A DNA stretch of 64,000 bases from Candidatus Gastranaerophilales bacterium (GTDB lineage: Bacteria; Cyanobacteriota; Vampirovibrionia; Gastranaerophilales; Gastranaerophilaceae). Below are positions 30,126 to 31,014 of this stretch, one piece after another (the first letter of the stretch is position 1; every line of letters begins with the position of its first letter). The position numbers were made by a program, and so were the translations under genes. Under the pieces are notes generated by a model. The model searched no databases, had not been told where the DNA came from, and saw only the letters and a list, made by a program, of their open reading frames with translations. The DNA is taken from the NCBI GenBank assembly GCA_944325545.1, contig CALVAM010000004.1:1-64000 (forward strand), given 5' to 3'.

Positions 30126-30941
30126 AATGCTTCGCATTGGGAGTTCTCGTCTCGCTCTTCTATTATTTTTAAATACACAAAATGCCGATGGGGAGACTCT
30201 CTTGTTCGCTCGCGTTTAACGGCAATTTCGAATTTTGTTGCAAGATTTCATCTTTTACAAAATTCTACAGCCTCAGCTCGCTCACGCTTCTTGAATTTGT
30301 TCCACGCTCGAAAATTTCGCAATAAAACCTTTGGTTTAGCATTGCTCCATTTCCTCGCTATCCGAACGAAACTGACTTTGTCAGTCTTCGTCCGTACACA
30401 AATTCGCTCGAACTCTTCAATGCTTCGCATTGGGAGTTCTCGTCTCGCTCTTCTATTATTTTTAAATACACAAAATGCCGATGGGGAGACTCTCTTGTTC
30501 GCTCGCGTTTAACGGCAATTTCGAATTTTGTTGCAAGATTTCATCTTTTACAAAATTCTACAGCCTCAGCTCGCTCACGCTTCTTGAATTTGTTCCACGC
30601 TCGAAAATTTCGCAATAAAACCTTTGGTTTAGCATTGCTCCATTTCCTCGCTATCCGAACGAAACTGACTTTGTCAGTCTTCGTCCGTACACAAATTCGC
30701 TCGAACTCTTCAATGCTTCGCATTGGGAGTTCTCGTCTCGCTCTTCTATTATTTTTAAATACACAAAATGCCGATGGGGAGACTCTCTTGTTCGCTCGCG
30801 TTTAACGGCAATTTCGAATTTTGTTGCAAGATTTCATCTTTTACAAAATTCTACAGCCTCAGCTCGCTCACACTCGAACTCTTTAATGCTTCGCATTGGG
30901 AGTTCTCGTCTCGCTCTTCTATTATTTTTAAATACACAAAA
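30126..30941. repeat. Tandem array of 293-bp units carrying tRNA-Thr 3'-end copies
   Basis: Essentially identical units repeat with a 293-bp period; a final unit is shortened to 173 bp by a 120-bp deletion and runs into the tRNA-Thr gene. Each unit contains TGCCGATGGGGAGACTC, the complement of the tRNA's last 17 nt, at 30183, 30476, 30769 and (in the tRNA itself) 30942. Homology with the tRNA stops inside the T-loop. Units also contain small hairpins: CAATGC-TTC-GCATTG, AAACC-TTT-GGTTT (30325-30337) and ACTGAC-TTT-GTCAGT (30371-30385, 30664-30678). Short open frames on both strands repeat with the unit and are not convincing genes. Confidence 0.92.
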
Positions 30942-31014
30942 TGCCGATGGGGAGACTCGAACTCCCGACCTACTGATTACGAATCAGTTGCTCTACCACC
31001 TGAGCCACATCGGC
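30942..31014 (-). tRNA. tRNA-Thr (anticodon CGT)
   Basis: On the minus strand a complete cloverleaf is visible: acceptor GCCGATG/CATCGGC, D-arm GCTC/GAGC, anticodon stem ACTGA/TCAGT around loop TTCGTAA (anticodon CGT), T-arm GGGAG/CTCCC with TTCGAGT, and discriminator A. CCA is not encoded. 73 nt including the discriminator. Its 3' end is copied in every unit of the adjacent tandem array. Confidence 0.96.

Follow-up and report, generated by a model that had tools for sequence, protein, structure and literature searches.

The window (the whole 64-kb stretch of DNA analysed here) holds a single tRNA gene placed by ARAGORN and Rfam, tRNA-Thr(CGT) on the minus strand (30942-31014), and on its 3' side lies an array of three units, each closing with a copy of the tRNA's own 3' end. 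This 17-bp tag, TGCCGATGGGGAGACTC, which runs from the T-loop to the discriminator, is present in four exact copies at 30183, 30476, 30769 and 30942, the first of them (30942-30958) being the 3' end of the gene itself and the others the ends of the units (30769-30785, 30476-30492 and 30183-30199, minus strand). Elsewhere in the window the tag does not recur at up to two mismatches, and it appeared in 0 of 100 shuffles. Tag-to-tag intervals are 293, 293 and 173 bp, and TRF gives a period of 293. Copies, period and intervals had all been read by a first-pass annotation from the letters, and exact search, TRF, ARAGORN and Rfam bear them out. Its remark that the window lacks an integrase holds as well: a profile search with PF00589 found no match on the window's contig, the matches in this genome lying on contigs C2, C8, C14, C28 and C36.

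Reading along the minus strand, the proximal unit (30769-30941, 173 bp) has the canonical make-up of leader, P2 hairpin, module A and tag, and is also found in two other genomes (G022, G086). The second (30476-30768) and third (30183-30475) units, 293 bp each, combine module A with a module B and are identical when compared tag to tag; beyond them follows a distal partial unit (30114-30182) with a leader and a P2-like hairpin, without module or tag. The P2 hairpins (30877-30905, 30704-30732 and 30411-30439) consist of the complement of the T-stem 5' half, a ATGCGAAGCAT loop, and the T-stem 5' half with the start of the T-loop; their pairing is tRNA-specific. Module A, an 85-nt structured core, was placed by covariance model matches at 30786-30870 (105.4 bits), 30493-30577 and 30200-30284. 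Rfam scans of the array gave nothing significant except the tRNA, and a phage BLAST with the array as query matched tRNA-Thr genes only. The window itself begins with another tandem repeat (1-337), of 155 bp in 2.2 copies that are 95% identical.

The short last interval had been ascribed to a 120-bp deletion. The interval stands, but the difference is a discrete module B of 113 nt plus 7 nt and not a plain deletion. Module B (30586-30698 and 30293-30405) has the borders AGC and AAGACA, and it either replaces module A or precedes it, as it does in both distal units here. Units that contain B are those of tmRNA, Leu, Ser, Glu and Thr; B also lies in antisense inside tRNA-Asp tags and, in a few places, where there is no tRNA. 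B was more likely inserted into the array than deleted from it, because it occurs elsewhere in the same genome with the same borders and the B-less unit is the usual form in relatives. One further copy in this genome (L006:1504-1616, contig C3) lies away from any tRNA and right after a CTTCCCC-AGTA-GGGGAAG palindrome; module B may thus enter other hairpins too.

Anatomy and fold of the units

On the tRNA strand, the general order is tRNA, often an encoded CCA and a terminator-like hairpin, leader, left arm (P1), P2, P3, AAGACA or a similar stretch, and tag. The left arm is partly complementary to the tag; P2 comprises the complement of the T-stem 5' half followed by that half itself with the T-loop start; P3 is the structured module (A, B or both); and the tag is the T-stem 3' half with the acceptor 3' strand. 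In the copied tRNA 3' end, the T-loop is therefore interrupted by module A.

Which tRNA is copied depends on the neighbour. In 52 of 53 copies, the stretch directly ahead of the core matches the T-stem 5' half of the adjacent tRNA, compared with 32% (maximum 51%) when tRNAs are swapped. Duplex energies point the same way for the left arm (-12.1 kcal/mol against its own tRNA, -10.2 against others) and for P2 (-9.0 and -7.9 kcal/mol, respectively); none of 1000 permutations reached this own-tRNA complementarity of P1 and P2, the effect itself being modest, and simple alignment scores of P1 complementarity did not clearly separate own from other tRNAs.

Seven module A copies from the window's own genome adopt one fold, with compensatory changes at 14 of its 24 pairs. 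Among 78 distinct copies, pairing is kept in 96.9% of cells (75.9% when shuffled), 19 of 24 pairs show double changes, and there are 386 double-change cells where slid controls have 9-32; fitting the alignment to the model biases it towards structure, yet the margin is large. By eye, most copies of module A have tandem G.A/A.G steps in the outer stem, while others have Watson-Crick pairs there.

A structure conserved by covariation would also be in keeping with a quite different reading, namely that the units are functional RNA elements which belong to tRNA transcripts and are inherited vertically. They would be processed at the tag, as a tRNA is at its 3' end, and would act as sRNAs, as proposed for the E. 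coli RrA/RrB/RrF repeats, with their patchiness due to losses by recombination between tags. It is further favoured by the absence of a terminator-like site between tRNA and units at some loci, the window locus included. In most units seen, however, a terminator-like hairpin (identified by eye) does lie between the tRNA and the module, which speaks against it, and to our minds the reading is unlikely on this and on the comparative evidence below.

Module A across Gastranaerophilales

The full 293-bp unit, for which a genome-wide search had been proposed, is confined to one locus in its own genome (37 contigs, 1.82 Mb). Module A, by contrast, recurs elsewhere, and the array is not a scar private to this locus. 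Comparing the array with the rest of the genome revealed module A pieces beside tRNA-Val, tRNA-Gln, a Tyr-type tail and tmRNA, and a covariance model built for module A (R1) detected 20 good copies at about 12 loci, which adjoin Thr, Val, Gln, Asp, Lys, Ala and Arg tRNAs, the Tyr-type tail and tmRNA. With R1, 64 of the 65 genus genomes have copies, as do 122 of the 146 genomes from the order Gastranaerophilales, gut bacteria of the Melainabacteria; up to about 20-29 copies were detected in a single genome. Outside the order, a phylum-wide draw of 244 genomes gave one weak match. Consistent with this, an exact core pattern run against 84,980 species genomes returned 64 stretches, all titled Gastranaerophilales or unclassified gut bacteria. 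We found nothing on such repeats in Gastranaerophilales in the literature, our search of which mostly did not extend to subscription journals.

The position of module A was scored from the loci fetched around its copies (91 non-identical ones), whose host RNA genes are 20-odd tRNA species and tmRNA. In 64 of the 91, module A follows a tRNA or tmRNA gene on the same strand within 1 kb of its 3' side, mostly 70-112 nt away, and one copy lies on the other side of a tRNA; for the remaining 26 the fetched piece contains no tRNA, though most of them still close with a tRNA tail. On their 3' side the copies are followed by the T-loop-to-discriminator stretch of the adjacent tRNA, usually identical over 15-23 nt. 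Occurrence at many non-tRNA sites, which had been named beforehand as evidence that would tell against an att-like origin, is hence not what we see for module A; module B, with its few sites lacking a tRNA, is less strict.

Loci carry one to three units, and many arrays run into contig ends. In the window's own genome, 7 of the 12 module A loci (on C8, C14, C20, C23, C24, C31 and C37) lie within 1.1 kb of a contig end, about 0.5 being expected (binomial P about 2e-7). Module A arrays thus seem to be a main cause of assembly breaks, and a practical consequence of such arrays is that they break genome assemblies.

Some loci depart from the common layout. On contig C8 a module A copy (L008:1427-1704) lies upstream of tmRNA, with a 25-bp direct repeat of the tmRNA 5' end on either side, and this is possibly an insertion at the 5' side of the gene. 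At two other loci (L147, L168) about 1.2-1.6 kb of DNA separates the tRNA from its module A unit; it holds open reading frames, the longest spanning 369 codons from stop to stop, and is possibly cargo or another inserted element.

Empty site, apparent spread and proposed recombination

The tRNA-Thr(CGT) locus has one unit in G027 and none in G003 and G012. Comparison of this locus in relatives, which had been suggested as a check on the att reading, yields a precise insertion in its favour: against G003 and G012 the insertion in G027 measures 160 bp with a 15-bp overlap, the duplicated tag; the left match stops at the last base of the tRNA, the right match begins at the second tag, and the downstream flank continues for about 100 bp at 91% identity. 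The tRNA of the filled site has an encoded CCA and those of the empty sites do not, so the unit supplied the tRNA's new end. This is the one empty-site case that we worked through fully.

With a precise empty site in hand, plain tandem duplication can be weighed, in which a chance copy of the tRNA 3' end and its flank would have been amplified by slippage or unequal crossing-over without any mobile element. The two 293-bp units are identical, as this predicts, and tag-to-tag recombination would yield exactly such arrays. Yet the module recurs behind many tRNAs in many genomes with its structure conserved, and the G027 site is precise. Plain duplication accounts for copy number, not origin; as an origin it is contradicted, and we hold it to be very improbable as an explanation of the array, while the step from one to three units likely did occur by plain unequal crossing-over or slippage.

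Our data further suggest that units travel. Module A copies group by tRNA, not by genome, their likeness being 0.83 for the same tRNA across genomes, 0.74 between different genomes and 0.68 for different tRNAs within one genome; intragenomic transposition bursts were rejected on these values. Two tRNA-Leu(GAG) units (L132, L162) are 99.4% identical over 172 nt while their tRNAs share 88.1% and the valS genes 74.4%, and a pair of tRNA-Ala units is 98.4% identical at 81.1% valS identity. The leader of the best cross-species pair is 98.8% identical, and flanks of such pairs show no or short matches. Since unit identity far exceeds that of valS and tRNA, units seem to move horizontally, and it is strongly suggested that whole units have recently passed from species to species, reaching the same tRNA each time, bearing in mind that most of these genomes are metagenome bins in which chimeric joins at repeats could produce cross-species identities. 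The same excess is unlike vertical descent and hence counts against the functional RNA reading, as does the empty-site case, where the distal flank agrees with the empty site but the proximal one does not; the grouping of cores by tRNA across genomes is, on the other hand, in its favour.

As to how units might enter, the tag had been recognised as the T-loop-to-discriminator segment that tRNA integrases use. This is supported by an ordinary 10-kb integrative element in G067, which has a tyrosine recombinase, separates tRNA-Ala from its unit and targets the corresponding segment of that tRNA; the 24-bp T-arm att repeat at its borders, GGAGTTCGAATCTCCTAACCTCCA, lacks module A. The T-arm is therefore an active attachment site in Gastranaerophilales. 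The view of the array as a row of att-like junctions survives in part, as att segment and duplicated tag are there; the units are, however, not mere scars of different insertions, because they are copies of one structured, covarying family behind many tRNAs and split the copied T-arm. Altogether, the attB reading of the array is partly supported.

We think it fairly probable that the array represents three tandem copies of a small non-coding, mobile element of the TLR type (see below) which enters tRNA 3' ends by site-specific recombination. The entry point would be the T-arm/3' end, which serves T-loop integrases as attB, with recombinases probably borrowed from resident integrative elements or phages; the tRNA would receive its new 3' end from the incoming unit, whose tag would be the former tail, displaced outward. 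Tandem units may then arise from repeated insertion or unequal crossing-over and be lost through tag-to-tag recombination. A possible route is hitchhiking, whereby aberrant excision of an element like that in G067 may take the neighbouring unit along, which would explain tRNA-specific spread without a dedicated recombinase. Our data establish the anatomy, family, structure and tRNA specificity of the units and one clean empty site; movement between species is apparent, and its mechanism and any function of the units are what we infer. Several points weigh against the mobile element. Units (160-293 bp) contain no recombinase gene, neither a circular form nor a carrier was seen, with P3 inside the T-loop the outer att departs from a standard core site, and the P1 and P2 effects are, as said, modest. 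Strong purifying selection could conserve the core as well, but not the nearly identical leader of the best pair.

Concerning carriers, blastn of one unit against plasmids and phages gave nothing, and exact-pattern scans of viral contigs gave one match, a unit at the edge of a prophage-like contig, probably in its host flank. Phage-like M15 peptidase genes adjoin a tRNA-Val-type unit on contig C24 of the window's genome (L005:1-640) and on an IMG/VR contig (L199), and a prophage may lie between the tRNA-Val-type gene and its unit. A tyrosine recombinase gene of the same genome is apparently split between C28:1-941 and C14:1-252, which share the stretch SLNRAGIDKIRFHDLRHTYASLLLA, with a tRNA-Met nearby on C14.

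Recombination may also be imagined on a folded single strand. An attC-like cassette, with T-stem halves and the P3 outer stem as recombinase boxes, would be inserted by a tyrosine recombinase into the double-stranded T-arm and build integron-like arrays. The geometry is similar, in that T-stem, unpaired T-loop spacer, outer stem with tandem G.A and inner hairpin resemble R box, spacer, L box and variable loop; tandem cassettes with a foldable terminal site at a fixed end are also the form of integron arrays, and successive units at one tRNA can differ in module (L159, L123, L155, L176). Unlike integrons, however, units target the tRNA T-arm, ordinary ones are without cassette genes, and 0 of 65 genomes have an integron integrase (TIGR02249) above cut-off; the attC boxes, moreover, are putative, read from the geometry. 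We therefore regard an attC-like origin as quite improbable.

Comparison with TLRs and related systems

The closest likeness of our tRNA-linked units is to the tRNA-linked repeats (TLRs) of E. coli, which were first described in 1978 (Egan and Landy) and catalogued by Rudd in 1999 (both as cited in PMC8144298), and for which no accepted function or origin has emerged since 1978 (PMC8144298). E. coli K-12 has 22 non-coding copies at 10 loci, where a tRNA or rRNA gene is followed by a single unit or by up to five in tandem, each unit ending in 18-19 bp identical to the 3' end of the upstream gene (PMC8144298). TLRs that follow 5S rRNA yield processed transcripts, which in vitro bind Hfq and CsrA (PMC8144298), a point in favour of the functional RNA reading. 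The units of Gastranaerophilales likewise lie directly downstream of tRNA or tmRNA on the same strand (the 64 of 91 above), come in tandem (one to three) and carry a gene-derived 3' tag (17 bp in the window, usually 15-23 nt elsewhere); by position and tag we file them as TLR-type elements. They differ from TLRs in sequence, in their interchangeable A and B modules, in reaching 20-29 detected copies per genome at many tRNA species and tmRNA, and in apparent horizontal spread, which PMC8144298 does not mention for TLRs. Three further E. coli tRNA genes considered as candidate TLR sites, proM, leuT and leuV, had no such repeat.

The likeness extends to the split T-arm. E. coli tyrTV units have the T-stem 5' half and T-loop start (AAGGTTCGA), a structured insert and then AATCCTTCCCCCACCACCA, reading GGATGAGAAGCTTCGACCAAGGTTCGA, insert, TAATCCTTCCCCCACCACCA, and share with the Gastranaerophilales units the upstream GGATGAGAA motif (GATGAGAAC in the latter); by eye, the rrnB repeat similarly splits a copy of the 5S 3' end. 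A far-reaching extension would be that both are one ancient class of folded single strands, inserted into the T-arm (or 3' end) of stable RNA genes by a tyrosine recombinase - integron-like, without an integron - and spread between species to form arrays behind tRNA genes in distant phyla; this we consider distinctly unlikely. As a whole, the units form a large, structured and probably mobile family of TLR-type repeats. They would add a large new branch to a class of repeats that is poorly understood and so far known for the most part from E. coli, Gastranaerophilales offer comparative data on TLRs that E. coli alone could not give, and the split T-arm points to a concrete, testable insertion site and ties such repeats to tRNA-directed site-specific recombination.

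With tRNA-integrating elements (tyrosine recombinase, T-loop attB) the units share the target segment and the regeneration of the tRNA 3' end; they differ in being about 160-290 bp, in having neither integrase nor cargo, and in a structured module that splits the outer T-arm. Insertion at the tRNA 3' end with a duplicated att is seen in G027 versus G003, and an own recombinase, as in an autonomous integrative element, is not.

Run over 64 Gastranaerophilales genomes, the RtT RNA model (RF00391) gave just three weak matches with E <= 0.1. Each is a full-length match to an A unit and keeps the register, the GAUGAGAA motif, CGAGCG and the pairing of P1 with the tag all being aligned. Their scores (22-25, best 24.8) stay far below the gathering threshold of 45 bits, so they are not RtT members by sequence; all three are tRNA-Tyr-type units, hence part of the signal is the tag, and most units give no match. 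What looks like the RtT order (left arm-tag pairing, GAUGAGAA, T-stem hairpin, structured insert) was seen by reading and in the covariance model alignment, where the matched units are all of the tRNA-Tyr type. RtT has tandem G.A pairs (PMC7657543), as does module A.

Both B-bearing units of the window contain an identical 60-codon ATG reading frame (30248-30430 and 30541-30723, minus strand), which is probably due to chance; the E. coli tyrTV repeats likewise hold a small annotated frame (tpr).
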